From positions 248,001 through 312,000 of the forward strand of contig NZ_KE557314.1 in the NCBI RefSeq assembly GCF_000442275.2: DNA of 64,000 nucleotides. The letters are read 5' to 3'. The stretch is from Litoreibacter arenae DSM 19593 (lineage in GTDB: Bacteria; Pseudomonadota; Alphaproteobacteria; Rhodobacterales; Rhodobacteraceae). The notes under the pieces were generated by a model. It saw nothing but the letters and a program-made list of their open reading frames with translations. It had not been told where the DNA came from and did no database searches. The translations under genes were made by a program, and so were the position numbers. Within the stretch, counting starts at the first letter, position 1. Every line of letters begins with the position of its first letter. Below, piece after piece: positions 13,480 to 34,412 of this stretch.

Positions 13480-13629
13480 TTTTCTCTCCCTTGTACAAAG
13501 ATCCAAGCCCCGCAGCCATCCCCACGGTGTTTCCAGTCCGATCCGGTGCAGCAGTATTTTTTGCGGCAGTTCCGCGCTGATCTGACAGGCGGGCTTGTCT
13601 TCAAGAAAAAAGGCTAAAGAGTTGTAGCC

Positions 13630-13655: not shown

Positions 13656-13677
13656 CAGAGATAGAAAATGGGTATTG

Positions 13678-14604: not shown

Positions 14605-14729
14605 AGGCCAGCTGTCAGGTATGCCCTGCAGATATAGCTGACATCTAAAAACAGCCTTACAAGCATGGAAAATCATGTTCTAGAGTTGGTAGGCCGGACC
14701 ACGACAGGTCTGACAGCGGAGGAGCAATC

Positions 14730-15863: not shown

Positions 15864-15869
15864 CCAGCC

Positions 15870-17309: not shown

Positions 17310-17323
17310 CTAGCTTACACGCC

Positions 17324-18948: not shown

Positions 18949-18949
18949 G

Positions 18950-21046
18950 TCATTGCGCCCCTTCGTTCAGTTCGATCACCGCGTCCAGCGCATAGGCCCC
19001 TTGCCCCTGAGGCATCGCCAGCACGGGGTTGAGGTCAATCGACAACAGCCGCTCTCCGGCACCTGCCGCAAAAACGGACAGCTGCGACAACATTTGCGCC
19101 AGCGCATCTATGTCTGCCGGTTCCTGCCCCCGTGCGCCGTTCAGGATCGGTGCCCCGCGTATGGACAGGATCATGTCCCGCGCGGTTGCCGCATCAAACG
19201 GGCAGATCCGCAGGGCCACGTCGTCAAGTATCTCCACGAAGATGCCGCCAAGGCCGAACACGGCCACCGGCCCGAATGTCGGGTCGCGGTTGATGCCCAT
19301 CAGGCATTCCACGCCACCCGAAAGCTGTTTAGCCACCAGAACCCCGCTGATTGCCGCGTCGGGCGCGTGGGTGTCAGCCGCCTGCATGATGGCGTCATAG
19401 GCCGTGCGCACATCGTCCTCCGAGCGAAGGTTCAACTTTACCGCGCCGATATCGGACTTGTGGATAATATCCGGCGACAGGATTTTCATCACGACCGGAT
19501 AGCCCAGAACCTCCGCCGCCGTGACGGCCTCGTCCGCATTTTCCGCTCTGCTTTCCGGCGCACAGGCGACACCCGCTTCCGACAGGATTGATTTGGCCTC
19601 CGCCTCATCCGGTGCATGCTCTGGCAATGTGACGGAGTTGGCCGCTGTCAACTTTGTCGCCCGTTCCCCGGCGCGCGTCTCGCAAATCGCATGGATCGCA
19701 CGCGCAGCACGGCAGGGATCGTTGAAGACCAGGATGCCCTCGTCGTCATACCGCTCCAGCACCTCCGGCGCACCGAGCGCGCAAAACGCGATAATCCGGT
19801 CGGGGTATTCCGCCCGCAGCGGCTTCATCGCCGCAAGGATCGCGTCCGAGACCGCGGGGCTGCCCGCAACATAAGTTAGAAAACACAACACCGCGCCATA
19901 GCCGCCGTCTTCCAGCGCGGCTCTTGTGAACGACTCCAACAGCGACGGGTCGTTGAGCGCCTGCGCGGTGCAATCCAGCGGGTTGACCGGCGACGCATAG
20001 GGAAGCAGCGCCTTAAGTCGCGCCTGCGCCGCCTGCGGCATCGCGGGCATCGGCAGGCCGATGCGTTCCGCCTCGTCGCTGATGACGATGCCTGCGCCGC
20101 CGCTGACGGTGATGACACCCAGCGAATGGGCTGCCGGATAAATCTTCTTGGAGGCCGCATAGGCGATATCCATCATCGCCTCGGGGTCGCGCACGAGGAT
20201 GACGCCGTGGTCTCGAAACACCGCATCCGCGACGACCGCGTCGCCGGTCAAGGACGCCGTGTGCGAGGCCGCTGCCTGCGCCCCCACCGCCGAGCGACCC
20301 GCTTTCAGCGCAATAACCGGCTTGCCCGCCGCCCGCGCCGCATCAAGCGCGGCCAGCAACGCGGCGGGGTCGTTCACCGCCTCCATATAGGTGCAAATCA
20401 CGTCGATCCCGTCGCGCTCTGCCATCCAGTGGATCGCATCGGCGACGGTGATATCTGCCTCGTTGCCCGTGGTAATCAGCATCGAGACACCCAGCGCGCG
20501 GTCCCGTGCCAAGGCCCCCAGATGCGCCCCGAACGCGCCGGACTGGCTGGCGATGCCGATATTGCCGGGCTTGGGATAGCCCGTGTCCAGTGACGAGGAA
20601 AACGTGCCGTAATAGCCGATATCGACATTGTAGACGCCCAGCGTATTTGGTCCCAAAAGGCGGATACCATGCTCATGCGCCAGCGCCACAAGCTCCGTCT
20701 GCGCGGCTAGGCCCTCCTCGCCCACTTCCGCGAAGCCCGCAGAAAACAGCGTCGCGGCCTTGCAGCCTTTGCGGCCCAGCGCCTCGATCGTGTCGGGCAC
20801 CATACGCGCAGCCACCGCAATCAGCGCCGCGTCGGGCGCTTCGGGCAGGTCGTCCACGCTGGCATAGCATTTCAACCCCTGCACGGTGTCCCGCTTGGGG
20901 TTCACCGGATAGATGCGGCCCGCATATCCGGCCTTCAGCATTGCCGCAATCGGACGCCCGCCAATCCGCGTGACGTCCTCCGATGCCCCGATCATCGCAA
21001 CCGAGCGCGGGGCCACCAAGCCGTCAATATGGCTCAGGTCCGTCAC
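18950..21046 (-). CDS. NDP-forming acyl-CoA synthetase (acetyl-CoA synthetase-like, fused)
   Basis: A 698-residue fusion of the alpha and beta parts of the NDP-forming acyl-CoA synthetase family. An N-terminal CoA-binding Rossmann domain (SVAMIGASEDVTRIGG, residues 16-30) leads to succinyl-CoA-synthetase-like domains with the phosphorylated His262 in AASHTASLTGD. A C-terminal ATP-grasp domain follows, with LGYPVVMKILSPDIIHKSDIG and an end rich in DLNPVLA. The enzyme activates a carboxylic acid to its CoA thioester with ATP through a phosphohistidine. Here it probably performs the first step of the operon's pathway. The gene's ATG overlaps the thiolase stop by 4 bases. The substrate range in this family is wide and is not determinable here. 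Confidence 0.9.
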   Translation of the reverse strand: MTDLSHIDGLVAPRSVAMIGASEDVTRIGGRPIAAMLKAGYAGRIYPVNPKRDTVQGLKCYASVDDLPEAPDAALIAVAARMVPDTIEALGRKGCKAATLFSAGFAEVGEEGLAAQTELVALAHEHGIRLLGPNTLGVYNVDIGYYGTFSSSLDTGYPKPGNIGIASQSGAFGAHLGALARDRALGVSMLITTGNEADITVADAIHWMAERDGIDVICTYMEAVNDPAALLAALDAARAAGKPVIALKAGRSAVGAQAAASHTASLTGDAVVADAVFRDHGVILVRDPEAMMDIAYAASKKIYPAAHSLGVITVSGGAGIVISDEAERIGLPMPAMPQAAQARLKALLPYASPVNPLDCTAQALNDPSLLESFTRAALEDGGYGAVLCFLTYVAGSPAVSDAILAAMKPLRAEYPDRIIAFCALGAPEVLERYDDEGILVFNDPCRAARAIHAICETRAGERATKLTAANSVTLPEHAPDEAEAKSILSEAGVACAPESRAENADEAVTAAEVLGYPVVMKILSPDIIHKSDIGAVKLNLRSEDDVRTAYDAIMQAADTHAPDAAISGVLVAKQLSGGVECLMGINRDPTFGPVAVFGLGGIFVEILDDVALRICPFDAATARDMILSIRGAPILNGARGQEPADIDALAQMLSQLSVFAAGAGERLLSIDLNPVLAMPQGQGAYALDAVIELNEGAQ

Positions 21047-22197
21047 AACGCAGCCTCAGAGCCCAGGATTGCCGTGCATTGGCTGGACAGGGTGCCGCCA
21101 TTGCCGTGACACAGGGCAAGGTTGCAATCGTCGACCTGCCGCTCGCCGGCGTCACCGCGAATTTGCGTGACGGCTTCGGCGATCAGGAACAGGCCATACA
21201 TCCCCGGATGCACGCAGGACAGACCGCCGCCATTGGTGTTGACCGCCAGCTCGCCGCCCGGCGCGATGCGCCCGTCTTCGACAAACGCGCCGCCCTCGCC
21301 CTTGGCACAAAAACCGAGGTCTTCGAGGAACAGGATCGTGTTGATCGTAAACGCGTCGTAGAGCATCGCCACGTCAATATCCTTGATCCCGACACCCGCC
21401 ATCTCCAGCGCACGGGGGCCACTCTCGGCAGCAGCGGTCGTCGCAAGATCAGGCATCGCCACGATGGAGCGGTGATAGTTCGCCGCCCCGCCCCCGAGGA
21501 AATACACCGGCTTTGCGGTCAGGTCCTTCGCGCGGTCGGCGCGGGTCAGAACACAGGCCGCAGCCCCGTCCGTCACCAGACAGCAATCCGCCTTGGTCAA
21601 CGGGTCCGAGATCATCCGCGACGACAGCAACTCGTCTTTCGTCAGTGGCCCACGGGCGAAGGCTTCGGGGTTGAGGTTCGCCCACCCCCGCGCCGCAAGC
21701 GCCACGTCGGCCAGTTGTTCCCGCGTCGTGCCATATTCGTGCATGTGCCGGCTTGCCGCCAAGCCATAAGCCGTGATCGGGTGGCGCGGGTTGTAGGGCG
21801 TCTCGTGCCATTGCGGCTCGCTCATCGACACCAGTCGCCCGCCCGCCGTGCGCTGGTTCGACCCGTAGCAAACCAGCGCGGCGTCGCAAAGACCCGCCTC
21901 CAGCGCAAGCGTCGCCTGAAGCAAATGCAGCTCGAAACTGGAGCCGCCAACATTGGTGCCATCAAAGAACCGAGGCTTCAGTCCCAGATACTCCACTACG
22001 CTCATCGTCGGAAACGCGTGGGAGCTGGTAGCGGCAAACACGCCGTCGATGTCCTGCATCTGCAAACCTGCATCCGCGACCGCCGCAACGGCGGCCTGCC
22101 CCAAAAGCTCCATCGCGGAAAAGCCGGGGGCCTCGCCCACGCCAGCGGTCGCCATGCCCACAATCGCGGATTTGCCGCGTATACCTTGCCCGCTCAT
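21043..22197 (-). CDS. Thiolase-like protein, SCP-x / lipid-transfer type
   Basis: A 384-residue thiolase-fold protein. It shows AIVGMATAGVGEAPG, DIDGVFAATSSHAFPTMSVVEYLGL, TNVGGSSFELHLLQAT, and C-terminal VNTNGGGLSCVHPGMYG and LCHGNGG. At the position where degradative thiolases have the nucleophilic Cys, the sequence reads GGSSFE, so the usual Cys is absent; the HPG and CHG motifs remain. This matches the SCP-x-like subgroup that often works with a DUF35 OB-fold partner, encoded directly downstream of the regulatory side here (stop/start overlap at 22194-22197). Some members act as retro-aldolases or thiolases on branched or steroid-derived CoA esters. Activity is therefore uncertain. Confidence 0.85.
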   Translation of the reverse strand: MSGQGIRGKSAIVGMATAGVGEAPGFSAMELLGQAAVAAVADAGLQMQDIDGVFAATSSHAFPTMSVVEYLGLKPRFFDGTNVGGSSFELHLLQATLALEAGLCDAALVCYGSNQRTAGGRLVSMSEPQWHETPYNPRHPITAYGLAASRHMHEYGTTREQLADVALAARGWANLNPEAFARGPLTKDELLSSRMISDPLTKADCCLVTDGAAACVLTRADRAKDLTAKPVYFLGGGAANYHRSIVAMPDLATTAAAESGPRALEMAGVGIKDIDVAMLYDAFTINTILFLEDLGFCAKGEGGAFVEDGRIAPGGELAVNTNGGGLSCVHPGMYGLFLIAEAVTQIRGDAGERQVDDCNLALCHGNGGTLSSQCTAILGSEAAL

Positions 22198-22574
22198 GCC
22201 GCGCCTCCTTCAACCAGATCGAACACGACCCGGTTGCCGGTCTCGGCCTCCTCGATCCGCGCCGCAACGCGCGCACCGATGGGGGCCGTCTCGACCTCGG
22301 GCAGCGTCGACATCATCCGCACGCCCTCGTCCAACTCGATCAGAGCCACATTGGTGGACCCTGACCGGCTGCGGTTCACGGTGATCGCGTAGACCGTTCC
22401 CGTACCCGCAGGCGCGACCCATTCCAGATCGGTCGCCCCTGTCGGCGTCGAGATGCGCGGGAAAAAAACGTACTCCCCCGTGCTTTTCGCCCGCTGGATC
22501 ATGAAGCGGCCTTGCTCCAGAAACGCCTCGTAAGTCGCCTGCGGCCCCGCTTGGGATGCATCATTCTGTGTCAT
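22194..22574 (-). CDS. OB-fold (DUF35-type) partner protein lacking the zinc-ribbon cysteines
   Basis: A 126-residue protein with the DUF35 layout: an N-terminal helix (ATYEAFLEQGRFMIQRAKS), a short linker with FFPRISTP, then an OB-fold beginning LEWVAPAGTGTVYAITVNR. Typical members carry a rubredoxin-like pair of CxxC motifs between helix and OB-fold; no Cys is present here, so zinc binding is not expected. DUF35 proteins form complexes with SCP-x-type thiolases or MaoC proteins and shape the acyl-CoA site. The ATG at 22574 has AGGA upstream; longer in-frame starts would run into the thioesterase gene. It overlaps the thiolase gene by 4 bases, supporting a complex. Confidence 0.8.
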   Translation of the reverse strand: MTQNDASQAGPQATYEAFLEQGRFMIQRAKSTGEYVFFPRISTPTGATDLEWVAPAGTGTVYAITVNRSRSGSTNVALIELDEGVRMMSTLPEVETAPIGARVAARIEEAETGNRVVFDLVEGGAA

Positions 22575-22602
22575 GGGTGTCCTTTCCTTCAGCTCTGAGC
22601 GG

Positions 22603-23025
22603 TCACTTGGACCAATCAAGGATCATATGGGTCTGGGTGGTGACCGCAGCGGTTTTACCGTCGCTGCGGGTCATGGTGATTTGAAACACGATCAACGTCC
22701 GGCCCAAGTGCAACGGCTCGCACCGCGCGGTGACCGTGTCGCCGACACTCACGCCGCGCAGGAAGTTGGTCTTGCTCTCGATCGTCGTGTTGGATTTGTC
22801 CGCCGGAATGTTGATGAACGCAGACGTCCCCGCCGCGTTGTCGGCCAGCGTCATCATCGCGCCACCATGCAAAGCGCCGTTGCGGTTGCTCAGGGCATCT
22901 GTGACTTCCATGGTGCAGACAACGCAATCGGGCGTCGCGGACACGATCTCGATCCCTGCCAACGCCGAGAAGTTCGACTGCTCCGGCATCTGGTCAAGAC
23001 GCCGTGGCGTGTCTCCGTCGCTCAT
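22603..23025 (-). CDS. PaaI-type hot-dog thioesterase
   Basis: A 140-residue single hot-dog protein. NRNGALHGGAMMTLADNAAGTSA near residues 47-69 is the PaaI/YbdB-type active-site region, with the HGG turn and catalytic Asp on the long helix; ESKTNFLRGVSVGDTVTARC follows. Such enzymes hydrolyse acyl- or aryl-CoA esters and often protect a CoA pathway from dead-end intermediates that would tie up CoA. The gene overlaps the acyl-CoA dehydrogenase stop by 4 bases and is followed after 28 bases by the DUF35 gene. There is no targeting sequence, so it is cytoplasmic. Specificity is not visible. Confidence 0.87.
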   Translation of the reverse strand: MSDGDTPRRLDQMPEQSNFSALAGIEIVSATPDCVVCTMEVTDALSNRNGALHGGAMMTLADNAAGTSAFINIPADKSNTTIESKTNFLRGVSVGDTVTARCEPLHLGRTLIVFQITMTRSDGKTAAVTTQTHMILDWSK

Positions 23026-24191
23026 TGGTTCGCCCGCTGGGCCAAGGTGCGCTTGCCGATAATCATCTGCTGGATCTGGCTTGTGCCCTCATAGATGCGC
23101 AGCACCCGCACATCGCGATACATGCGTTCGATGTCATACTCGGACATATACCCCGCGCCGCCATGGATTTGCAGCGCACGGTCGGCGATCCTGCCAACCA
23201 TCTCGGTGCAGAAGTACTTGGTGCAGGACGCTTCCAGAACGGCTTTCCCTTCACGGTCGAACTTCTCCGCCGTGCTGCGCGTCAGGGCCCGGCCCGCGTG
23301 AAGCTCTGCCTGACAATCCGCCAGTAGCCCCTGCACCAGCTGGTGCTCCCCGATGGGTTTGCCAAACTGCTTGCGCTCCAGCGCGTAGTCGGTCGCCATG
23401 TCGAGCATTCGCTGCCCCTGCCCGACAGACATGGCGCCGATATGAATCCGCCCCCGATCAAGCACCCGCATGGCAGTGCGGAAGCCTTGGTTCAGCCGAT
23501 CCGGCCCGCCAAGGATCGCGCTTTCCGGCACACGCACGTTGTCAAAAATCACGTCAGAGGTCTTGGCCCCGCGCTGCCCCATCTTCCGGTCGGGCTTGGC
23601 CACGGTGATCCCCGGCGTGTCCGCTGGCACGATGAAGGCGCTCACCCCGTCCGCGCCGGGCTTGTCAGGGTCGGTGCGGGCGAACACGGTAAAGACGCCC
23701 GCCTTGACCGCGTTGGTGATGTAGCGCTTGGTCCCGTTGATCACGTAGTCCGAGCCGTCCTTGCGCGCGCTGGTCCGGATGCCGCCCGCGTCGGAGCCGT
23801 TGTCAGGCTCGGTCAACGCAAAGGAGGTCACAATGTCACCACTGGCAATCCCCGGCAGCCACTGTTCTTTTTGCTCTTGGGTGCCGTCCATGACCAGGCC
23901 TTGCGAGCCGATGCCCACATTGGTCCCGATCATCGACCGGAAGCTTAGCGACGCGTAGCACAGCTTTTCGATCAACACCGCCTCCTGGCTGGCGCTCACG
24001 CCGATCCCGCCAAACTCCTGCGGCGTGGACAAGCCGTATAACCCCATCTCCTTGACCTCGGCGACAATATCGGAGGGAATTTCGTCGTCCTCCTCCACCT
24101 GCCGCTCTGCGGGGATGAGCCGCTCGCGGGCAAACCGCTCCACGGCACTTACGAGTTGTTCAAAAACCTCTGTGTCTACACCTGACGTCAT
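23022..24191 (-). CDS. Acyl-CoA dehydrogenase, canonical type
   Basis: A 389-residue acyl-CoA dehydrogenase with all standard elements: FALTEPDNGSDAGGIRT and YITNAVKAGVFTVFART for FAD and substrate, ERKQFGKPIGEHQLVQ, LQIHGGAGYMSEYDIERMYRD, and the catalytic Glu in IYEGTSQIQ near the C-terminus. It introduces the 2,3-double bond in an acyl-CoA and passes electrons to ETF. It is the first gene of the minus-strand operon and faces the IclR regulator across a 94-base divergent promoter region. The ATG at 24191 is used because GGAG lies 8 bases upstream; longer in-frame readings would cross the operator palindrome. Confidence 0.92.
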   Translation of the reverse strand: MTSGVDTEVFEQLVSAVERFARERLIPAERQVEEDDEIPSDIVAEVKEMGLYGLSTPQEFGGIGVSASQEAVLIEKLCYASLSFRSMIGTNVGIGSQGLVMDGTQEQKEQWLPGIASGDIVTSFALTEPDNGSDAGGIRTSARKDGSDYVINGTKRYITNAVKAGVFTVFARTDPDKPGADGVSAFIVPADTPGITVAKPDRKMGQRGAKTSDVIFDNVRVPESAILGGPDRLNQGFRTAMRVLDRGRIHIGAMSVGQGQRMLDMATDYALERKQFGKPIGEHQLVQGLLADCQAELHAGRALTRSTAEKFDREGKAVLEASCTKYFCTEMVGRIADRALQIHGGAGYMSEYDIERMYRDVRVLRIYEGTSQIQQMIIGKRTLAQRANQ

Positions 24192-24247
24192 ATTTTCTAC
24201 TCCAGTTTCGGGAACCGCATCCAAGCGCCGCTTGCGTCTCAAACAGT

Positions 24248-24263
24248 ATTCTATATATTGAAT
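24248..24263. promoter_or_regulatory. Candidate IclR operator palindrome
   Basis: A 16-base near-palindrome, ATTC-N-ATATAT-N-GAAT (14 of 16 positions symmetric), lies 22 bases before the IclR start and 56 bases before the divergent acyl-CoA dehydrogenase start. Position and symmetry suit a dimer-binding site controlling both directions. It was found by eye; no consensus search was made. Confidence 0.45.
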
Positions 24264-24285
24264 GGCATTCGCAATAGGAAATAGC

Positions 24286-25062
24286 ATGAACGACGAGACA
24301 CGTCAAAAACTTGTCCCAGCGGTCGAAAACGCGGCGCTGATCCTACGCTTGCTTGTGTCGAGCGGTCGGCCAATGGGCGCGACGACAATCGCACGCGAAA
24401 CCGGGCTGAATGTCTCGTCCGCCTTCAACATCCTGCGCACGCTGGCGCATGAGCGGCTGATCTCCTTCGACGCCACAGACAAAACTTACGCGCCCGGAAT
24501 GGGCCTGCTGGAATTCGTCACGCCCTTGCTTGGCGCAAATCCTGCCGAGCTGATCCGACCGCTACTCAACGATATCGCACAACGCCATCAGGTGATGATC
24601 GCGCTTTGGCAGATCACCGAAACGGATCGGGTCGTCCTGATCGACCGCTTCACGCCGGAGCGCGTCGTGCAGGCCGTGATCTCCCGCAACAGCCGCCTGC
24701 CGGTGTTCAGCGGCGCGATAGGCCGCTGCTACGCCGCCGCCATGGGGCTGGACAAGGCACAAACCCGCGCGGGTTATGAAGCGGTGCGCTGGCAGTCCGA
24801 ACCGGGCTTTGACGCTTACTGGCAGGACGTCCAGACCGCGCGTGAGACGCGCACGGCATTCGACCACGGACAGCTTTTCCGCGGCCTTGAAATCGTCGCC
24901 TCCCTCGCCCGCGACGCGGATGGCACACCGCGTTTCGGGATGAGCAGCATCACCATAACCGGACAACACGACGCAGAAAGCCTCAAGGCGGTCGCCGTCT
25001 CCCTCGCCGATGCCGCCAACCAGATAGAGCGCGGCGTCTTCGGCCGCCCCAACAACACCTGA
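24286..25062 (+). CDS. IclR-family transcriptional regulator
   Basis: A 258-residue IclR regulator. The N-terminal winged HTH covers about residues 10-70 (NAALILRLLVSSGRPM, TTIARETGLNVSSAFNILRTL), and the C-terminal effector domain follows with SRLPVFSGAIGRCYAAAMG and FDHGQLFRGLEIVASLARD. It is divergent from the acyl-CoA dehydrogenase operon and 16 bases upstream of a co-directional SDR gene, so it is the likely local regulator of both transcripts, probably relieved by a pathway acid or CoA ester. The ATG at 24286 is preferred because AGGA precedes it by about 7 bases; the in-frame ATG at 24262 falls inside the palindrome and has no ribosome-binding site. Confidence 0.92.
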   Translation: MNDETRQKLVPAVENAALILRLLVSSGRPMGATTIARETGLNVSSAFNILRTLAHERLISFDATDKTYAPGMGLLEFVTPLLGANPAELIRPLLNDIAQRHQVMIALWQITETDRVVLIDRFTPERVVQAVISRNSRLPVFSGAIGRCYAAAMGLDKAQTRAGYEAVRWQSEPGFDAYWQDVQTARETRTAFDHGQLFRGLEIVASLARDADGTPRFGMSSITITGQHDAESLKAVAVSLADAANQIERGVFGRPNNT

Positions 25063-25078
25063 ACAAACGGAGTAACCC

Positions 25079-26002
25079 ATGTCGGACCAAAACCCCCTGA
25101 ACGGAAAAGTCATGCTGGTCACCGGAGCCGGCGGCGGCATCGGCCGCGCACTCGCCCTTGAGGCCGCAAAGGCCGGCGCCAGTGTCGTCGTCAATGATCT
25201 GGGCGCATCGCTCGATGGCCTAAGCGACGCAAGCACCGCCGCCGAGGATGTGGTATCGGAGATCGAAAAGCTGGGCGGTAAGGCCGTCGCCAACGGTGAC
25301 AACGTGGCCGAACCCGACGGCGCCGCCGCGATGGTCCGCCAGGCCACCGACACATACGGGCGGCTGGATGCGGTTATCAACAACGCAGGCATCCTGCGCG
25401 ACTGCTTCTTCCACAAGATGACCTACGAGAACTTCGACGCCGTGGTGAAGGTCCACCTCTACGGCTCCTTCAACACCAGCCGCGCCGCCGCCGACGTCTT
25501 CCGCGACCAGAACTCCGGCAGCCTGATCCACATGACCTCGACCTCCGGCCTGATCGGCAATCTGGCGCAGGCCAACTACTCCGCGGCGAAGCTCGGCGTC
25601 GCGGCCTTGTCCAAATCCATCGCCCTTGATCTTGCACGCTGGAACGTCCGCTCAAACTGCATCGCGCCCTTTGCATGGAGCCGCATGACCTCCTCCATCA
25701 AGGTCGACAGCCCCGAGCAGGAAGAGCGCGTGAACCGCATGAAGGAAATGGTGCCGGAAAAAATTGCCCCGCTTGCGTTGCATCTCGCCTCGGACGAGGG
25801 CGCGGATATCAGCGGCCAGATATTCGCCGTGCGCAATAACGAGATCTTCCTGATGTCCCAATCCCGCCCCGTGCGCTCTGTGCATCACGGCGGCGACGGC
25901 TGGGATATCGCAAGCGTGCGCAACCAGGCAATCCCCGCGCTCAAACGCAGCTTCGTTCCGCTCGAAGTCTCTGGTGATGTGTTCTGCTGGGACCCGGTCT
26001 GA
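25079..26002 (+). CDS. SDR-family 3-hydroxyacyl-CoA dehydrogenase, MFE-2-like
   Basis: A 307-residue short-chain dehydrogenase. The NAD-binding TGAGGGIGR is at residues 15-23, NNAGILRD near 100, the catalytic Ser in HMTSTSGLIGN and the YSAAK pair near 165. The C-terminal tail (QIFAVRNNEIFLMSQSRPVRSVHHGGDGW) is longer than in plain SDRs and matches the dehydrogenase unit of peroxisomal multifunctional enzyme 2, which oxidises (R)-3-hydroxyacyl-CoA. That is the product of the MaoC-type hydratase in the divergent operon, so the two transcripts together complete a cycle. CGGAGT precedes the ATG. It is the last chromosomal gene before the island's left repeat. Confidence 0.9.
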   Translation: MSDQNPLNGKVMLVTGAGGGIGRALALEAAKAGASVVVNDLGASLDGLSDASTAAEDVVSEIEKLGGKAVANGDNVAEPDGAAAMVRQATDTYGRLDAVINNAGILRDCFFHKMTYENFDAVVKVHLYGSFNTSRAAADVFRDQNSGSLIHMTSTSGLIGNLAQANYSAAKLGVAALSKSIALDLARWNVRSNCIAPFAWSRMTSSIKVDSPEQEERVNRMKEMVPEKIAPLALHLASDEGADISGQIFAVRNNEIFLMSQSRPVRSVHHGGDGWDIASVRNQAIPALKRSFVPLEVSGDVFCWDPV

Positions 26003-26042
26003 CTGCCTCACCTGCGACGCAAAACCCGTTTCCGGCGCGCCA

Positions 26043-26057
26043 GTGGCGGAGACGAAG
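26043..26057 (+). repeat. Left attachment-like repeat (copy of tRNA-Ser 3' end)
   Basis: GTGGCGGAGACGAAG is identical to 34322-34336 at the tRNA-Ser(GCU) 3' end; identity stops on both sides. It lies 41 bases after the SDR stop codon. Confidence 0.72.
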
Positions 26058-26126
26058 TCCGCCCGCACTTAACTATAAGTTATTAATAAATATAAATAAT
26101 AAAATTCACAACTTGAATTGTAGATA

Positions 26127-27110
26127 TGTACGGACTCTCGGGACACTTCCTGTAAATACCCTGATTTGGGATGGAGGAAGTATTCATGACAAACGAAGAA
26201 CGCGACATTCAACGCAAACTTAGAGTGCTTCAGCACGCCGAGACGATCGGCAATACTCGCAAGGCCTGCCGGTATTTTGGGGTCGGAAGGTCCAGTTTTT
26301 ATAGATGGCGCGATGCCTATCAGAAACATGGCGAAGCCGGCCTAGAGAACGCCAGATCAATTCCCAAAAACCCGGCCAACCAAACGCCGCCCGAGATCAT
26401 CGAGAAAGTGCTGTATCTGCGTCGCAAGTATCACTTGGGGCCAATCCGGATCGTCTGGTATTTGGCGCGCTATCACGGCATCAAAATCTCAGATGCCGGG
26501 GTGTACCGCATTCTCAAGCGCAACGGTCTCAATCGACTGCCCAGAGGCACACGAATGCGCAAACTGCACACCAAACGCTATCAGAAGCAGGCACCAGGTC
26601 ATCATATCCAAGTGGATGTTAAGTTTCTGACCTTCAAAGGAAAAAAGGGCGAAAGGGTTCGCCGTTTCCAATACACAGCGATCGATGATGCAACCAGAGT
26701 TCGCGCCCTCAAGATTTACGAGAAACACACGCAGGCAAATGCGATCGACTTCATTGATCATATCATCGAAAAGTTCCCATTCCGCATTCGCGAAGTTCGC
26801 ACGGATAATGGCCACGAGTTCCAAGCCAAATTCCACTGGCATGTCGAAGATCTCGGCATCAGGCACGCCTACATTAAGCGGGGTACGCCTCAACTCAATG
26901 GCAAAGTCGAACGATCCCACCGTTCAGATCAGCAGGAGTTCTACCAACTTCTCAGCTACAAAGGTGACGTCGATCTGAAGGCTAAACTCAACGAATGGGA
27001 GCGGTTCTACAACTTCGCCAGACCGCACGGCGCGCACAACGGCCAAACCCCTTACGAAGCTCTCAGAGACAAGCTACAGTAGCAACGCAAGTGTCCCGCA
27101 GGTCCGCCCA
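26127..27110 (+). mobile_element. IS481-family-like insertion sequence, 984 bp
   Basis: The element begins TGTACGGAC and ends with the complement of TGGGCGGAC. Imperfect terminal inverted repeats span about 24 bases (left core 26131-26150, right core 27087-27106; 15-16 of 20 matching, including GGGACACTT). It contains one transposase gene that fills most of its length. No clear target-site duplication was seen, so the exact ends may be off by a few bases or the flanks may have decayed. Confidence 0.75.
26186..27082 (+). CDS. IS481-family DDE transposase
   Basis: A 298-residue transposase with an N-terminal HTH (TRKACRYFGVGRSSFYRWRDAY, residues ~25-46), a second helix-turn region (PEIIEKVLYLRRKYHLGP), and an rve integrase-like core. 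Candidate catalytic acids are the Asp in HIQVDVKFL, the Asp in VRTDNGHEF and the Glu in LNGKVERSHR; all three are present and the frame is intact, so the element may be active. The ATG at 26186 is preferred because GGAGGAAG lies just upstream; an ATG 15 bases earlier is possible. The final RPHGAHNGQTPYEAL is the common C-terminus of the family. It lies inside the tRNA-Ser island close to its left end. Confidence 0.9.
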   Translation: MTNEERDIQRKLRVLQHAETIGNTRKACRYFGVGRSSFYRWRDAYQKHGEAGLENARSIPKNPANQTPPEIIEKVLYLRRKYHLGPIRIVWYLARYHGIKISDAGVYRILKRNGLNRLPRGTRMRKLHTKRYQKQAPGHHIQVDVKFLTFKGKKGERVRRFQYTAIDDATRVRALKIYEKHTQANAIDFIDHIIEKFPFRIREVRTDNGHEFQAKFHWHVEDLGIRHAYIKRGTPQLNGKVERSHRSDQQEFYQLLSYKGDVDLKAKLNEWERFYNFARPHGAHNGQTPYEALRDKLQ

Positions 27111-27778
27111 GGTTACAGTTTGGCGAAGACGAAAGCGGACCTTAGAACATCCTCTTTAAGGGTCGGTTAGTCCCGCGTCTAGCTCATTGCCTGACGAAAT
27201 CTCGCTGCACCCGGCGCAAATGGCCGATCTTTGCGCCGCGTTGCCGTGCTCAAGATGATGCTTACGCGGCAAAATCCGTGCTGCGAGCGCGCGCAGCGGG
27301 ATTTTGACACTTCCGCTCAGGGCTCAAACTTGTCGTTCGCCGCGCAATTGCCTAACGACTGCTTATGATCTGGAGTGAATTCCAGGATCGCCACCTACCC
27401 CGCCGCAAACGGTCCTTCCCGGCCATTGACCGTGTGTCGCGTCGCCGCGATGCAGCTTCCCCGAAGCGGACATTGATCGATCGCGCAGCATTTCGGTGGA
27501 GCCGATGGCAGCTATGCGGGACTCTGCTGCCGTTAAAGTAGACGACGCGAACGTCCCCTCTAGGGTATTTGATGAAATCAATGGACATTGACTCTTGCCA
27601 GTCGGGTTGACCTTTAGCCCGAGTAACAATTTTTTGATCAAAGGGCTCTCAAAACAAGGACGAAACCTCAGTTCGTAAACCACTAATTGGTGCGATTCAT
27701 GCCTTAATCTCGACACAGGAATTCGCAATATCAGAAACGAACTGTTGCGATATTTAGCTTTCGACAAGTGAGGGGCCC
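27111..27778. other. 668-bp gene-free stretch in the island
   Basis: No convincing reading frame. A strong hairpin occurs at 27270-27306 (CAAAATCC pairs with GGATTTTG, inner CTGCG with CGCAG), possibly a relic terminator or element end. Around 27473-27535 is a degenerate copy of an interspersed intergenic sequence (AGCGGACATT ... GGGACTC ... GCTGCCGTTA), also seen near 56541-56595. The promoter for the glycan genes should be in the last ~150 bases, which are AT-richer. Confidence 0.5.
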
Positions 27779-28975
27779 ATGCTGAATCAAACCATCTCGG
27801 TCGCTTTTGTCCTGCCGTGTCTAAACGAGGCGACGACGCTAGAAAGATGCATTCTCAGAGCGAGAGAAGCTCTGGCGGGAATTCGTGAAAAATACGGTCT
27901 TTCCGGAGAAGTGATTGTTGCTGACAACGGCAGCGACGATGGCAGCCAAGACATCGCACTGCGTACAGGCGCGCGGGTGGTGCATGTGGCAGAACGCGGC
28001 TACGGTGCGGCCTTGATTTCCGGGTTTGGCACAGCGAGATCGCAATATTTGGTGATGGGCGATAGTGATTGCTCCTATGACTTCGTTGAAGCTGTTCCGA
28101 TGATTGGCGAGCTGTTGAACGGTGCGGATTTGTGCATGGGCAACCGGTTTCGTGGCGGCATTAAGCCCGGCGCGATGCCGTGGAAGAACCGCTACATAGG
28201 CAATCCAGCTTTGTCTGGTATTCTGCGGGTTCTCTTCAAGACCGATATTGGCGACGCCCATTGCGGTTTGCGCGCCCTGACCGCGCCTGCATTGGAGCGA
28301 CTCAACCTGTCGTCGACGGGAATGGAATTTGCCTCCGAAATGCTTCTGAAATCGGTCTTGCTGGATTTCAAGATCGCGGAAGTGCCGGTCACCCTTTCCC
28401 CGGATGAGCGCGGCCGTCCACCGCATCTGAACCCTTGGCGCGATGGGATGCGACACCTTATCTACATGTTTTTGCTGAGCCCAAGCTGGCTTTTCATGGT
28501 ACCGGGCGTCACGCTTGGCCTGTTGGGATTGGCCATGATGACAGCCCTGCTTGTTGTCGGCGGTGACGAACTCGTGCAGATCGGCGGGGTTTTCTTTGGC
28601 AGCCACTGGGCTGTTATGGCCAGTGCCGCAATGATCATTTCTGTGCAGACTGTAGCCATGGGGATGTTTGCTCAGCTTTACAATTACAAAGAACTTATCC
28701 GGCGACCCAGCAGACGCGCCTTGGCCTTTCTCAATGCGTCGCGGCTTGAGTACTGGCTCTTGGCGGGCATGCTGCTGATTGCAGGTGGCTTAGCTTGGAT
28801 CAGCACAATCACATTCGGCTGGATCGCATCGGATTATGCAGGCCTCAGCGCGATGCGGGGGATGATCGCGGCCGGAACGATGTGTGTGATAGGCGCACAA
28901 GTGTTCTTTTCCGGTTTCCTTATGTCGGTGGTTTCTGGAAATCGCTCACGGCATCTGTTTGCGATAGGTGATTAA
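27779..28975 (+). CDS. Family 2 glycosyltransferase, polyprenol-phosphate type, with C-terminal membrane helices
   Basis: A 398-residue protein. The N-terminal ~220 residues are a GT-A domain of the dolichyl/polyprenyl-phosphate glycosyltransferase type: VAFVLPCLNEATTL, VIVADNGSDDGSQD, and the metal-binding MGDSDCSYDF, followed by MGNRFRGGIKPGAMPWKNRY and DAHCGLRAL. The remainder has about four to five hydrophobic helices (from VPGVTLGLLGLAMM onward). Such enzymes load a sugar from a nucleotide donor onto polyprenyl phosphate at the inner face of the membrane. It is first of five co-directional island genes, overlapping the next by 8 bases. With an ArnT-like protein downstream, it probably supplies the lipid-linked sugar. 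Confidence 0.88.
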   Translation: MLNQTISVAFVLPCLNEATTLERCILRAREALAGIREKYGLSGEVIVADNGSDDGSQDIALRTGARVVHVAERGYGAALISGFGTARSQYLVMGDSDCSYDFVEAVPMIGELLNGADLCMGNRFRGGIKPGAMPWKNRYIGNPALSGILRVLFKTDIGDAHCGLRALTAPALERLNLSSTGMEFASEMLLKSVLLDFKIAEVPVTLSPDERGRPPHLNPWRDGMRHLIYMFLLSPSWLFMVPGVTLGLLGLAMMTALLVVGGDELVQIGGVFFGSHWAVMASAAMIISVQTVAMGMFAQLYNYKELIRRPSRRALAFLNASRLEYWLLAGMLLIAGGLAWISTITFGWIASDYAGLSAMRGMIAAGTMCVIGAQVFFSGFLMSVVSGNRSRHLFAIGD

Positions 28976-30002
28976 TCTAATCGGGCATGACAACATGATG
29001 AGAGGTGCAAACTTCATCGAAGGAGTTGAGACAAAACAGAACCGCGTCTGGATGGTGTTGTTGATCACTGCCGGTGCGGTGCTGGGGTTGATCGCTCTTT
29101 TATTGGGCAGCGGCGCGTCTGTCGCTGACTTCGTAGCCTTGTGCGCCCGCATACCCCTTTGGACCTATGGTGCCATTGCCTTCACCCAAGCCACAATCGT
29201 CGTATTGGCTGCTCTGCGCTGGCGAGTGTTGCTGAAAGCCGTGTCCCCTCGGGGTCAAACTCTGACACTACAGCATGCAACCGCAGCGACAACATTGGCC
29301 GCAATTGCTGGGCAAATCCTTCCAATCCAGCTTTGCACTCCGGTCATTCGCGCCTGGTTTGCGTTGCGTTTCGATATCCCTGTCATGCGGTCTTTGGGAA
29401 CGTCGGCTTTGGAGCAGACATTTCAACTTCTCGTACTGATCAGCGCAGCAGTTCTGAGTTTTTTGTTTCTGGTGCCAACGGTTGGTTGGGTGTTTGATGC
29501 GGTTGTCCCAATTCTCGTTTTGGGCGCCATGGTTATCTTCGTAAGATTTGCCATTCAGGTGGTGTCGAAGCTTCTGGCAAGTATCGCGGATCAGGGGACC
29601 TCACTTTTGGCGCGAACTGCCACCCGTCTGCGCCTGGGCTTCGAAAAAGCCGCGCAACTGCCGGACCGCATTCTGACATCTGTCACCGCGCTAAGCCTTC
29701 TTGGCTATACCGTCCTTGCTGCACTCAATGTCTTACTGCTCAACGCTATTTCAGGCGTGGACATCCTTCCCCTTCTGATCGCCTATCCTTTGGTATTGTT
29801 TCTGATGTCGCTGCCCTTTTTCCCCGGTGGGCTTGGCGTGGTGGAAGTGACTTGGGCGGGCGTGCTCACACGCGAAGGCTTGCCGTTCGATCAGGCGGTC
29901 GAGGCCGCTTTGGCACTCCGGGTGATCTCGACCCTGGGGTTTTTCCTGATTGCACCGCTTTTACTCGCAGGTCTCCAACCCGCTAAGCGGGGGGTGCCAT
30001 GA
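28968..30002 (+). CDS. YbhN/UPF0104-like integral membrane protein (flippase-like)
   Basis: A polytopic protein of up to 344 residues with seven to eight membrane segments. GQILPIQLCTPVIRAWFALRF, FPGGLGVVEVTWAGVL and ALRVISTLGFFLI match the lysylphosphatidylglycerol synthetase transmembrane-region/UPF0104 family. Relatives sit in polyprenol-glycan clusters and are often proposed to move or stabilise lipid-linked sugars; that role is inferred here. The annotated start is a GTG overlapping the previous gene by 8 bases. ATG codons at 28995 and 28998 are in frame and give a shorter, equally plausible N-terminus; neither has a strong ribosome-binding site. Its stop overlaps the next ATG by 4 bases. 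Confidence 0.8.
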   Translation: MINLIGHDNMMRGANFIEGVETKQNRVWMVLLITAGAVLGLIALLLGSGASVADFVALCARIPLWTYGAIAFTQATIVVLAALRWRVLLKAVSPRGQTLTLQHATAATTLAAIAGQILPIQLCTPVIRAWFALRFDIPVMRSLGTSALEQTFQLLVLISAAVLSFLFLVPTVGWVFDAVVPILVLGAMVIFVRFAIQVVSKLLASIADQGTSLLARTATRLRLGFEKAAQLPDRILTSVTALSLLGYTVLAALNVLLLNAISGVDILPLLIAYPLVLFLMSLPFFPGGLGVVEVTWAGVLTREGLPFDQAVEAALALRVISTLGFFLIAPLLLAGLQPAKRGVP

Positions 30003-30943
30003 CACGGGCATGGCTTTCTGTGATCATGCCTGTCTTTAATGGGCGCGCGACGCTGGATATGGCGCTGTCATCCCTTGAGGGACAATGCGACGGGCTTGAG
30101 ATTATCGCCGTCGATCAAGGCTCAATTGATGGCAGTCGCCTTGTGCTTGAGAAAGCGCAAAACCGTCTTCCGATCCGGATCATCGACAATCCCGACGGCA
30201 GCTCATGGACCGAGAATACAAACATCGGTCTGCGTGAGGCACGCGCACCGCTCATCACTATGTTGCACCAAGACGATATCTGGTTGACCGGGCGTGCGGC
30301 ACTTTTGCAAGACATCAGCACCCAGCATCAAGACGTCGACATCTGGGTGCATGGTGCTGATCTTATTGATGCGCAGGGCAACATCGTCGGACAGATGTGT
30401 CCGCCATTTGGAGATGTGCAGTGTGTCCTATCTTCTGAAGAGGCGCTTTCGCACCTGATCGTGCAAAACACCTTGGCGTTGCCAGCGGTCATGTTCCGGC
30501 GCGACGCCGCCCTGCGTCAGGGTGGCCTTGATGAGGAACTTTGGTACACGGCTGATTGGGATCTCTGGCTGAACCTCGCGCAGAATGGTTTGGCTTGGAA
30601 CCCCACCCGCGCCTCGGCGTTTCGGATACACGCACAATCCCAGACTATAACCGGATCGCGCGACCTGCAATCCTTCAAGCGCCAATTAGAGATACCGCTC
30701 CACCGTCATCTGGCTCATTTGCCGGATCAATTGACAAAACGCGCCCGCAAGCGCGCGGAAGCGGCCAACGCACTCAACGTCTGTTTGGCGGGCCTGCATC
30801 ATCGAAGTTTGCGTGGTGTTGCTTCAGCCCTTCGTGCGTTTTTTTTGCTCGGCCCGTTCGAATGGCGCGATTTTTTCATGAGCACTCAGATAGTGAACAG
30901 ATTAGTACCCCGGCTGAAGCTGGGGCTGAAAAGAGGAACATGA
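29999..30943 (+). CDS. Family 2 glycosyltransferase, soluble
   Basis: A 314-residue GT-A glycosyltransferase. LSVIMPVFNGRATLDMAL opens the fold, DGLEIIAVDQGSIDGS gives the nucleotide-binding segment, and MLHQDDIWLTGRAALL contains the acidic DD metal site near residue 91. ADWDLWLNLAQNG near 190 is the usual acceptor/base region (ED/DW type). The C-terminal ~90 residues are helical and basic with a hydrophobic patch (SALRAFFLLGPF), suggesting peripheral membrane contact. It overlaps the flippase-like gene by 4 bases and is followed by the methyltransferase after one base. It likely adds a sugar to the lipid-linked or surface glycan made by this island set. Confidence 0.87.
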   Translation: MTRAWLSVIMPVFNGRATLDMALSSLEGQCDGLEIIAVDQGSIDGSRLVLEKAQNRLPIRIIDNPDGSSWTENTNIGLREARAPLITMLHQDDIWLTGRAALLQDISTQHQDVDIWVHGADLIDAQGNIVGQMCPPFGDVQCVLSSEEALSHLIVQNTLALPAVMFRRDAALRQGGLDEELWYTADWDLWLNLAQNGLAWNPTRASAFRIHAQSQTITGSRDLQSFKRQLEIPLHRHLAHLPDQLTKRARKRAEAANALNVCLAGLHHRSLRGVASALRAFFLLGPFEWRDFFMSTQIVNRLVPRLKLGLKRGT

Positions 30944-30944
30944 C

Positions 30945-31571
30945 ATGGGTTCGATTGGAGCAAGTGTACGACGCGCTTTTGGTCCCTATGAGAGGCAAGT
31001 CTCGGAGCTGTACCGCAGTATCTTCGTCAATTTGGAGAATTTGGCGGACTGTATCCAGGAGTGGTCAGATCCGACGGCGATCTGTGAAATCGGGTGTGGT
31101 GAGGGTGCGCTGGCAGAACGTCTGTGCCGGGATTTCCCCGATGCGTCCTATCTGGGCATCGACATTATCCCGCATTTGGGACGCATGTATGACGGAGACC
31201 GCGCCGAGTTTTGCCAGATTGACGCTCAAGATCTTGCTGAAGAGTGCCCTGGGCAGTTCGACTTGGTTGTGATCAACGATGTCATGCACCACGTGCCGGG
31301 CGCAATCCGCGCGGACATCTTGGCAGCCGCAAAAAAGCTGTTGATGCCGGGCGGTGTTCTCGTATTCAAGGATTGGCTGAAACGAAAAACACCGATCCAT
31401 GCAGCCTGTTACATTGCCGATGTTCACATTGGTGCCGACAAAAATGTGGCCTACATGGCAATGGATGAGCAGCTGGAACTGATCACATCAGTTTTCGGGT
31501 CCGACGCAATCGTAGCAGAAAAGTCGATCAAACCCTGGTCGCATAATCACGCCTTCAAAGTCGTAAAATAG
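30945..31571 (+). CDS. Class I SAM-dependent methyltransferase
   Basis: A 208-residue methyltransferase. The SAM-binding ICEIGCGEGALAERL (residues ~46-60) is followed by the acidic YLGIDIIPHLGRMYD, then DLVVINDVMHHVPGAIRADIL and PGGVLVFKDWL. There is no membrane segment. It probably methylates a sugar or lipid intermediate of the glycan pathway; this follows from position between two glycosyltransferase genes. It starts one base after the preceding gene and ends 10 bases before the ArnT-like gene. A small-molecule or O-methyltransferase on another substrate is possible. Confidence 0.87.
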   Translation: MGSIGASVRRAFGPYERQVSELYRSIFVNLENLADCIQEWSDPTAICEIGCGEGALAERLCRDFPDASYLGIDIIPHLGRMYDGDRAEFCQIDAQDLAEECPGQFDLVVINDVMHHVPGAIRADILAAAKKLLMPGGVLVFKDWLKRKTPIHAACYIADVHIGADKNVAYMAMDEQLELITSVFGSDAIVAEKSIKPWSHNHAFKVVK

Positions 31572-31581
31572 GGTATTCGAG

Positions 31582-33078
31582 ATGACGGCACTCGCTCACT
31601 TCCAGCCCGCCGATCTTAGCCAAGAACAACGGCTATCACTTGCGATCAGGGCTTTTGTACTGGTGAAAATTGTCATCCTGCTTGTGCTGGCGGTCAATAC
31701 CCGCTTCGTGATGGATGAATTCTGGCACTTTACCCAGCCGGTGTATCTGTTCGACGGCACGTTCGAGGCGATTTGGCCAAAAAAAGCGGTCGGCTACGCA
31801 GTTTTTTATGAACTTTCTCACCTGATTGGCTGGGATGCCAGCTCTATGCTGATAACGGGTCGGCTGACCACGGCATGTCTTGCATTGGCGTTGACCTGGT
31901 GCATCTACAAATGCGCCTGCGCCTTGGGTTACGAGCGTGTCACCGCGCTTCTCGCCGTGGCTCTCTTGCTGAGCTTCAGCAACTTTATCGAGCGTGGGTT
32001 TCGCCTGCGATCCGAACCACTTGCTACGATGTTTGCCGCTTTCGCCGTGTTGGTCATCATCCGGTATGAGGCTGACCGCGCCAAAACCCTTCTGATTGCC
32101 GGCCTGCTTTGCGGGTTTGCGTTCGTGACGACGCAGAAATCGGTCTATTTCAACTTTGCCCTGGGGTTCGCATTGGTGATTGATGCGATCTGCATGCGTT
32201 CTTTCACGTGCGCGATCAAGCGCGGAGGGCTGCTTATTCTGGGCTGGGCTGTCGCCATAGTAATCTACGGCGCCCTGCTTGGCGGCCAGGCGATGCTGCA
32301 GGTTCTGGAGGTTCTTTTCTTGGGGCCGGTCGAACTCGCACGCAACGGCGGCAGTTACTACGAAGGGCTCGACGCATATGTCTGGCAAACGCTTTTGCGC
32401 AACCCGTTGCAATATGGATTGGTTGTCGTTGGATTCGTTCTGTCCGTCACGCGATTGCGCAAACTGGACAATGCCGCGCGGATATTCCTTGTCTACGCGG
32501 TCGTGCTCACCGCGTTCGTTTTCTTTCACAATCAGACATGGCCATACGTATTCGCCATGGCATTACCATTCCTGGCGGTCTACGGCGCTGCGGCAGCAAC
32601 CTTTTTTCTGCGGCACTCGAAAAGATGGACCGCGATTATGGTGGGGGTATTTATAGCTATTGCCGTGCAGAGCACTGTGCGAAACGTGCAGTATCTGAAT
32701 CACGACAACCGCGCTCAACTGGCGCTTGTCCAGTTCGCAGAGGCGCGGCTTGCCAAAGACGATACCTATTTCGACGGCATCGGCATGATCCCCAGCCGTC
32801 GCATGGAGCCCCGCCTATGGCTCGATGCCCAAGGCGTTCGCAAAACCAACGAAGAAGGGCAGAATTCAGCTCTCTACAGCGCGCTCCTAGGCGCTGAACC
32901 TCACCTTGTGATTTCGACTTATCGCACAGACAATTTGGGCGACGTCTTTAACTCTGTTCTAGAGACCAGATACGGCTTTCTAACGCCCCACATCATGCTA
33001 CCCTTCGAAACCAACCTAGAGCTCACACCAACAAAGTCCGAGCGCACCCCGCTTTTTAGCGGCATCTATGACGACTAA
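31582..33078 (+). CDS. GT39/ArnT-like multi-pass glycosyltransferase
   Basis: A 498-residue membrane protein with about ten hydrophobic helices. The first periplasmic loop carries NTRFVMDEFWHFTQPVYLFDG, with the acidic DE pair typical of GT-C enzymes (dolichyl-phosphate-mannose-protein mannosyltransferase, ArnT). Later come a RSEPLATMFAAFAVL helix and a C-terminal soluble tail with FDGIGMIPSRRMEP. GT-C enzymes use polyprenyl-phosphate sugars at the outer face of the membrane, which fits the polyprenol-phosphate glycosyltransferase at 27779 as donor supplier. It is last in the five-gene set; the next ~500 bases hold only gene relics. The acceptor (lipid A, protein or another lipid) is unknown. 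Confidence 0.8.
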   Translation: MTALAHFQPADLSQEQRLSLAIRAFVLVKIVILLVLAVNTRFVMDEFWHFTQPVYLFDGTFEAIWPKKAVGYAVFYELSHLIGWDASSMLITGRLTTACLALALTWCIYKCACALGYERVTALLAVALLLSFSNFIERGFRLRSEPLATMFAAFAVLVIIRYEADRAKTLLIAGLLCGFAFVTTQKSVYFNFALGFALVIDAICMRSFTCAIKRGGLLILGWAVAIVIYGALLGGQAMLQVLEVLFLGPVELARNGGSYYEGLDAYVWQTLLRNPLQYGLVVVGFVLSVTRLRKLDNAARIFLVYAVVLTAFVFFHNQTWPYVFAMALPFLAVYGAAAATFFLRHSKRWTAIMVGVFIAIAVQSTVRNVQYLNHDNRAQLALVQFAEARLAKDDTYFDGIGMIPSRRMEPRLWLDAQGVRKTNEEGQNSALYSALLGAEPHLVISTYRTDNLGDVFNSVLETRYGFLTPHIMLPFETNLELTPTKSERTPLFSGIYDD

Positions 33079-33299
33079 CGCATTTTCAGAACATGCCGAA
33101 GCATCTCCTGCCCCGCAAAATTTTTTCCAACACTCTTCGGATGTGAACAGATCGCGGACTTCACGAGCGCCTGGAAAAGCTGCATGCACCGTGCGCGTCC
33201 GTTAGCGCAGGCGGTCCGTGATGGACTTATCCCAGACCCGAACCATCAAGCCCCCGCACAGCCCCACAGCGCACCTTACAGCGCCCCCGAAGGCCAGCA

Positions 33300-33599
33300 C
33301 AGGGTAACAACCCATACGCGGACCCTCATGGTGCCCAGAACGAGGCACCAGCAAGCGTAGCAGACCAGTTCACTAAAGACGTTCTCCCCCGCGTCTCGCC
33401 CACAGCAATCAACTCCCTTGAAGCTGACTTGGCTGAGGGCCAATTCTCCGAGAAGACTTTGGATTACCTCATGCTTGAGGGTAACCAATCGGCTGAAGCG
33501 CTGGTTGCTGTTCGCGACGCCTATGCAGCCAAGATCAGCGGCATCAGTTGCGAGTTTAAGGTTCTGCTCTTTGATTTTGGAAAGGCGATAATGGCTCAG
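33300..33599 (+). pseudogene. Possible phage capsid-assembly (scaffold) protein fragment
   Basis: An open frame without a proper start reads GNNPYADPHGAQNEAP, then ASVADQFTKDVLPRVSP and LEADLAEGQFSEKTLDYLML. The composition (charged, alanine-rich, helical, preceded by a Pro/Gln-rich stretch in a neighbouring frame) recalls the C-terminal part of T7-like capsid-assembly proteins. A frameshift near 33298 would join the Pro/Gln-rich part to it. The similarity is weak and from memory. It runs into the antisense hsdM relic, as expected for scrambled island DNA. Confidence 0.35.
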
Positions 33600-34084
33600 C
33601 GCAACATCACCCAACCCATGTCGTGGTTCGACACAGTTTCCGGACGAAGGTCTGCGCCTTTGACCTGTTGCACCGCTTTGTAGAGAAGGTTGGCGTCAGC
33701 GAGTTGGCCAATGAATTCGCCGAATTTGAAATGTTCGAAGATTTCGCGGGCATCCTTTGAGAAGCATTGAATGTAGCTCTCAAGATTGTCCTTGATGCCA
33801 CTGGCCCCCAAAGTGGACAGGTCCATTTTTGAGGTGTTGTAGAAGGATAGACCAGAAGCCCGCAGAAGAAGCTTTTCCTTCGCTTCCTCGGGCAGTGCCA
33901 TTGCCTCAATTCGCTCAAGTTCAGCCAAGACTTTTGCTTTCCGCTCACTGAAAACGCATTCGAGGCGGCGGAGGAGGGTGAACGGCAAAATTATGCGCCC
34001 GTACTGGCTTTGCTTGAAGTCACCGCGCAGGAGGTCGGCAAGCGACCAAATGTATGACGCCAGATTGTTTGTTGATTGAGACAA
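33596..34084 (-). pseudogene. Truncated type I restriction-modification methylase subunit (hsdM 5' fragment)
   Basis: 162 codons match the N-terminal helical domain of Hsd[38 protein letters not shown], and [10 protein letters not shown]-like and [20 protein letters not shown] segments. The sequence ends right after VSNHDMG, where an intact protein (about 500 residues) would continue into the SAM-binding methylase domain with its NPPF motif. The catalytic part is gone, and no hsdS or hsdR is adjacent. It is therefore a relic of a restriction-modification locus, a common cargo of tRNA islands. The start codon and first helix are intact, so a short product could still be made. Confidence 0.8.
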
Positions 34085-34251
34085 GCTTGCTACCCGAAAT
34101 TGATCTGTTTGTTATTGAGAGAGACCGTAAATTGACGGTCTTTCATTGTACAGGCACATGCATCTCTAGCGGATGAGACCGGACCATTGCTTCGGCAGCA
34201 TCGTCTCGAACACTAAAACTCGTTTCTCATCAAACGCTCAACAAAAAACTT

Positions 34252-34281
34252 GGTCAATAATGGCGGTCAATGTTGGTCAAT
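34252..34281 (+). repeat. Three direct GGTCAAT repeats beside the attachment site
   Basis: GGTCAAT occurs at 34252, 34265 and 34275, within 30 bases and about 40 bases inside the island's right end. Clustered short direct repeats next to an att core resemble the arm-type sites bound by tyrosine integrases. A hairpin at 34122-34141 (AGACCGT/ACGGTCT) lies nearby. Function is inference. Confidence 0.4.
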
Positions 34282-34321
34282 GGGCACCCGTAAGTCATTG
34301 ATTTTCAACGAGCAAAGGTGG

Positions 34322-34336
34322 GTGGCGGAGACGAAG
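34322..34336 (+). repeat. Right attachment-like repeat at the tRNA-Ser 3' end
   Basis: The 15 bases are identical to 26043-26057. Reading from the tRNA (minus strand), they are part of its 3' acceptor/T-stem region plus one base beyond CCA, which is the classic integrase crossover position. Confidence 0.72.
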
Positions 34337-34412
34337 GGATTCGAACCCTCGAGACCCTTCCGGGCCTACTCCCTTAGCAGGGGAGCGCCTTCGACCACTC
34401 GGCCACGTCTCC
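34323..34412 (-). tRNA. tRNA-Ser (GCU anticodon)
   Basis: A 90-nt cloverleaf with the long variable arm of a serine tRNA. Acceptor GGAGACG pairs with CGTCTCC; the anticodon stem CTCCC/GGGAG encloses CTGCTAA, giving anticodon GCT, which reads AGC/AGU. The T-loop is TTCGAAT and CCA is encoded. Its 3' end overlaps the island's right repeat. Confidence 0.96.

Follow-up and report, generated by a model that had tools for sequence, protein, structure and literature searches.

What placed a low-G+C segment between a tRNA gene and a displaced copy of that gene's own 3' end? The question is raised by a stretch of 64,000 nt from Litoreibacter arenae DSM 19593 (GCF_000442275.2, contig NZ_KE557314.1, positions 248,001-312,000 of the forward strand), here called the window. 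We find that positions 26043-34322 are very likely a decayed, non-autonomous genomic island that arose by tyrosine-recombinase insertion at the tRNA-Ser(GCU) gene. Three features define its ends:

34323-34412, minus strand: tRNA-Ser(GCU), the integration target (ARAGORN, Rfam RF00005)
34322-34336, plus strand: right repeat copy, within the tRNA gene except for its first base (exact match)
26043-26057, plus strand: left repeat copy, the displaced tRNA-Ser 3' end, i.e. the far attachment (att) junction (exact match)

The 15-mer GTGGCGGAGACGAAG, made up of the last 14 bases of the tRNA and one adjoining base, is found exactly at both positions. This agrees with the original prediction, which placed a copy of the tRNA-Ser end after the gene of a short-chain dehydrogenase/reductase (SDR). 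The left copy begins 41 bp past the SDR stop codon. It is found beyond the 3' end of the tRNA gene and reads in the same direction, which is the arrangement that insertion into the 3' end of a tRNA gene produces. Rarity was judged from reversed-sequence counts, the expectation from base composition, and first-order resampling of the window. The own genome (3.68 Mb) contains three exact copies and three with one mismatch, compared with one for the reversed control and about 0.015 exact copies expected from base composition. A 14-bp match to the tRNA end on the same strand appeared in 0 of 300 resamplings. A 15-mer that was widespread or absent had been named as a ground for rejecting the island; with three exact copies in the genome it is rare. 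The third exact copy is within a 735-aa reading frame, which by eye we take to be uvrB.

The interior had also been described as unlike its flanks, and the composition bears this out. The G+C fraction is 0.539 in 26043-34321, compared with 0.616 in 1-26042 and 0.613 in 34413-64000, and in steps of 200 bp the change falls near both repeat copies, giving a low-G+C block bounded at either end. By tetranucleotide usage, the three 5-kb windows listed that fall within the segment rank at the 97th-99th percentile when 224 kb of the contig is considered. This is the foreign composition looked for in a tRNA-gene island.

The left copy continues into TCCGCC, so that 26044-26063 reads TGGCGGA-GACGAAG-TCCGCC, an inverted repeat around a 7-bp centre. 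An inverted repeat around seven bases is the layout of a tyrosine-recombinase core site. We searched 21 genomes of the genus with an 18-mer of this site, allowing at most one mismatch, and obtained seven hits, with none for the control. The hit in G017 is again the uvrB-like sequence, and the other six (G000, G007, G011, G015, G016, G018), five of them in congeners, all run on to CCGCC. In a survey of the family (394 genomes from 393 genera) the full 20-mer TGGCGGAGACGAAGTCCGCC, with at most one mismatch, is present in 36 genomes, 16 of them exact and the own genome included; the reversed control is found in 1 of 394. Among the 35 other genomes we fetched 19, i.e. all 15 with an exact copy and 4 of the 20 with one mismatch. 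Thirteen of these 19 relatives have a P4-type integrase gene next to the core, read from the same strand and starting on its TCCGCC side; the gap is 45-158 bp in 12 of them, and in one the mechanical open reading frame start overlaps the core. The core is paired with tRNA-Ser(GCU) as a direct repeat in five of the 19, at distances of 4.4, 7.6, 9.2, 11.0 and 11.4 kb, and the 8.3 kb of the window is within this range. G018 and G015 share 86% identity over 276 bp to the right of the core and have nothing in common on its left, therefore the right side is the element and travels with the core.

Judged from these sequences, the left copy is a real junction and not a chance 15-mer, and sequence and relatives together show both copies to be attachment junctions. 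In the window is a decayed representative of a class of islands that we define here by a P4-type integrase and the 20-bp core. As in the class, the core is paired with tRNA-Ser(GCU); the integrase is missing beside the core, where its place is occupied by an insertion sequence (IS) of the IS481 family. In a limited literature collection we found no published account of one 20-bp core across the family, and a 14-mer of the site was found only in one unrelated paper.

We compared 24 far ends, from the 19 fetched family genomes and five congeners. An integrase is located at the far end in 14, and none of these has the motif TACC[AT]C within 120 bases. Among the ten far ends without integrase, which are not all independent as those of G018 and G015 are homologous, eight have TACC[AT]C, a motif noticed post hoc, at base 64 or 65 counted from TCCGCC, and six of the eight have it again at base 76. 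Shuffled sequences gave at most 2 in 1000 shuffles against the observed 8 of 10, and for any hexamer at most 3 in 200 shuffles against 6. The fixed spacing suggests arm-type integrase sites. We think it somewhat probable that many genera share one attachment site at tRNA-Ser(GCU), that two or more kinds of element use its core (the first has a P4-type integrase far from the tRNA, the second has TACC[AT]C twice, at distances of 64 and 76 bases from this core), and that integrase-less islands could be mobilised in trans by resident relatives. The kind of far end in the window cannot be read, because IS481 cuts it after base 61.

The tRNA is also a hotspot in the genus. It is within 4.4 kb of ychF in 16 of the 20 congeners, its 3' side varies from genome to genome, and integrases of several kinds adjoin it. 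In G009 (L053 1922-5166) an element between tRNA-Ser and ychF has a duplicate of the 5' part of the tRNA; its genes include a tyrosine integrase and a Septu PtuA-like ATPase, the latter next to an apparent HNH gene. In G007 a core copy near ychF has a stretch like the right arm of the window on one side and TCCGCC on the other. This copy (L064 5343-5516), with arms on both sides, is inverted, and the tRNA is on another contig, a rearranged layout.

In the mechanism that we favour, the core, as the attP site of a circular element, would have recombined with the 3' end of tRNA-Ser(GCU) by the action of a tyrosine recombinase; the tRNA would thereby have been kept whole at one end of the insert, with 15 bp of its terminus duplicated at the other. 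One event probably placed the whole segment. The integrase, presumably of the P4 type, would have been lost later, in the route that we prefer by a deletion beside IS481. This element is 55 bp from the core, in the position that the integrase gene has in 13 of the 19 relatives. The island may by now be fixed in place, as was originally proposed, and would be movable only if the integrase of another element acted on its ends.

Several observations weigh against this account. No integrase or integrase remnant was detected in 26000-34400, neither by tblastn with four integrases nor by a profile hidden Markov model (HMM) run on 298 six-frame pieces, of which the best reached E 1.5 (E 2e-171 for the positive control, whose sequence is also part of the model), and the earlier claim that the gene is missing is thereby borne out. 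Beside the core, six of the 19 relatives show no integrase (the G301 contig ends within 1 kb), which weakens the case for an integrase at this place in the island. Neither a circular form nor, among the genomes compared, an empty site was found. The uvrB-like copy is one chance occurrence of the 15-mer in a coding frame. Finally, IS481 lacks a target duplication. We dropped this lack as proof of a deletion: the G007 copy is likewise without one, and for this reason its absence gives no support for a deletion.

The strongest alternative, to which we give somewhat less than an even chance, is a single island whose integrase was at the tRNA side, as in several congeners, and was lost with the truncation of an hsdM gene near the tRNA and not at the IS481 side. 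In its favour, the left end of the island is 82% A+T, a value closer to the mean of the far ends without integrase (73%) than to that of the far ends with integrase (62%). An end of this sort occurs together with an integrase next to the tRNA in G310 and in G011 (on separate contigs in G011). In addition, the right arm is similar to the sequence adjoining the G007 core, and the TACC marks are on the other side of that core. Compared singly, however, the left end is most like that of G302, which has its integrase at the far end (score 32, 95th percentile of shuffles 17), and IS481 cuts the end just short of the diagnostic bases. For the kind of end, the A+T content thus favours one without integrase and the G302 match one with it.

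A fusion is unlikely, though it has points in its favour. Here two islands of a tandem array would have been joined, the left end of the first to the right end of the second, after a deletion that removed the integrase and the core copy between them. Stacked elements are present at this tRNA in G007 and G016, and close to the two ends of the segment are an IS copy and the truncated hsdM, respectively. Against a fusion, the segment contains no third core copy within two mismatches (one with three mismatches is at 27120-27134), and the 8.3-kb spacing is inside the 4.4-11.4 kb of the five relatives. A merely coincidental repeat, with low-G+C genes that arrived otherwise, for example by IS481 or homologous recombination, is highly improbable: one exact copy elsewhere is a coding coincidence and IS481 is repeated in the genome, but the left copy has the conserved 20-bp core, relatives of this core have integrases, and the composition changes at both copies.

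With a single insertion followed by loss of the integrase beside IS481 as the preferred reading, the remaining features of the island are as follows:

26064-26118, no strand: remnant of the left end of the island (82% A+T), cut short by IS481
26119-27117, plus strand: IS481-family insertion sequence with TGT...ACA ends (transposase 26171-27082; NF033577 E 2.4e-78)
27118-27778, no strand: non-coding stretch without recognised gene
27779-28975, plus strand: glycosyltransferase family 2 (GT2) protein, like polyprenyl-phosphate-sugar synthases, with a membrane part (PF00535; TIGR04182 below cut-off)
28995-30002, plus strand: flippase-like membrane protein (LPG_synthase_TM, TIGR00374)
29999-30943, plus strand: glycosyltransferase family 2 (PF00535)
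30945-31571, plus strand: S-adenosylmethionine (SAM)-dependent methyltransferase (PF08242 and related models)
31582-33078, plus strand: large membrane glycosyltransferase (PMT_2, DUF7056; PF13231, PF23158)
33596-34084, minus strand: truncated hsdM, the N-terminal 162 aa of a type I methyltransferase (PF12161; PADLOC MTase_I model positions 4-160 of 661)
34085-34321, no strand: right end of the island adjoining the tRNA, a 237-bp arm

The IS481-type element, the glycan cassette and the cut hsdM that had been read from the sequence are all recovered by domain and profile matches. The ends of the IS481 element follow from comparison with other copies, in this genome and in G007; in the own genome these other copies are partial or at contig ends. 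Its matches end contigs C4 and C5, which suggests that IS481 breaks the assembly. The right arm resembles the stretch beside the G007 core with 78-80% identity over 145-160 bp; for 34178-34321 the value is 78% over 145 bp. The phage fragment suspected at 33.3-33.6 kb has no match in PHROGs or phage records, and we dropped a phage origin for it. A plasmid origin of the whole segment was dropped as well, as PLSDB holds no near match.

The cargo is a predicted five-gene glycosylation operon, 27779-33078. From the families of its proteins, it is predicted to attach a sugar to polyprenyl phosphate, flip the product across the membrane, and transfer the sugar to a surface glycan. The GT2 protein at 27779-28975 is related to the dolichol-phosphate-mannose synthase 5mlz (E 8.5e-15), while no solved structural relative of the large transferase was found. 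The large transferase is present in 4 of the 394 family genomes, the own genome included, and in one plasmid record from Ruegeria conchae (66%), where the gene order is different. The five-gene order recurs in G197, the last four genes are in order on a short contig in G066, and G003 has a rearranged set without the methyltransferase. The large-transferase relative of the congener G003 (L179 9568-10943) is split over two frames and distant from tRNA-Ser. In relatives the glycan genes are located elsewhere; synteny of these genes with both flanks would have spoken against an island.

The SDR gene on the other side of the left copy had been taken for ordinary flank, which our comparison does not support. 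All 20 congeners have only generic SDR relatives (best E 3.5e-33, 36% identity, compared with 2.5e-202 for the protein itself) and none has an ortholog. Because no congener has the SDR ortholog or the left flank, the comparison of SDR next to tRNA-Ser has no subject among them. SDR is the last gene of a cluster of coenzyme A (CoA)-related and transport genes. The catabolic cluster at 13600-26002 (CoA ligase, thiolase-like, acyl-CoA dehydrogenase, SDR, TRAP-type transport) is common to distant genera. From the best 80 SDR relatives listed in a contig scan, 32 loci were compared by blastn, and seven of them (Jannaschia rubra, Salipiger bermudensis with two, Martelella, Marinovum, Rhodospira, Paracoccus) show long collinear homology in pieces of about 3-11 kb, stopping at 25998-26004. 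The stretch of the cluster common to these taxa amounts to 7-11 kb. No tRNA was found near the SDR relative in the 30 of these loci that were scanned for tRNAs. Some congeners have single cluster genes elsewhere. The genes of an acyl-CoA dehydrogenase and a CoA-transferase (7.7-8.8 and 14.7-15.5 kb) are found together as a pair in several congeners at 65-76% identity.

We rejected in part the window positions 1-20000 as native flank. Except for IS481-type transposases, no window protein left of the tRNA has a match in 20 stretches around tRNA-Ser and ychF (from 17 congeners and two other genera, with two stretches for G007). Positions 1-3278 are collinear in G003, G004 and G016; with G005, the shared gene order begins again only near contig position 163 kb, at a distance of 119 kb from the tRNA. 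The PqiA locus was dropped as native flank, as in G002 and G005 it is far from tRNA-Ser on the same contig. PqiA genes are 0.8 kb from the core copy in G011 (L198 5928) and about 32 kb left of the left repeat in the own genome (L065 10270-14187). The SDR gene is no conserved flank and closes a transferable catabolic cluster; two acquisitions are side by side, and the locus is composite. What stands of the earlier island reading is the displaced tRNA 3' fragment, the foreign composition and the lack of an integrase, while the ordinary left flank and the phage fragment fall away.

Insertion at a tRNA end is an ordinary event; the attachment site is common to related islands in many genera of the family. 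The 20-bp core offers a simple sequence mark for far ends at this tRNA family-wide, including integrase-less islands that integrase-based finders drop, and makes it testable whether such islands still move with the help of resident relatives. At the locus itself, a portable glycosylation operon and a catabolic cluster acquired separately from it are neighbours.

Phage-type gtr glucosylation operons combine a polyprenyl-phosphate-sugar synthase, a flippase-like protein and a large membrane glycosyltransferase in one horizontally moved operon. Candidates for the same three are together here according to their domain families, with all equivalog models below cut-off. Unlike gtr operons, the cargo has a PF03706-type flippase, and it includes a methyltransferase as well as a second GT2; no relative of its large transferase was found in IMG/VR viral contigs.

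According to the Islander description (PMC4383910), islands at tRNA and tmRNA genes are defined by the gene and a displaced 3' fragment, and an integrase is required. As in these islands, the tRNA gene and the 3' fragment mark the ends here, with the fragment downstream in the same orientation, a length of 8.3 kb within 2-200 kb, and the fragment outside conserved coding domains; unlike them, the interval contains no integrase gene. The ssrA islands of Dehalococcoides (PMC3146451) are tandem islands by an RNA gene, each closed by a copy of the gene's 3' end, to which the present locus is similar. Some of them have no integration module and are described there as possibly mobilised with their neighbours or fixed. 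They use a serine recombinase and ssrA, whereas the relatives of the island described here have tyrosine integrases, and its target is tRNA-Ser.

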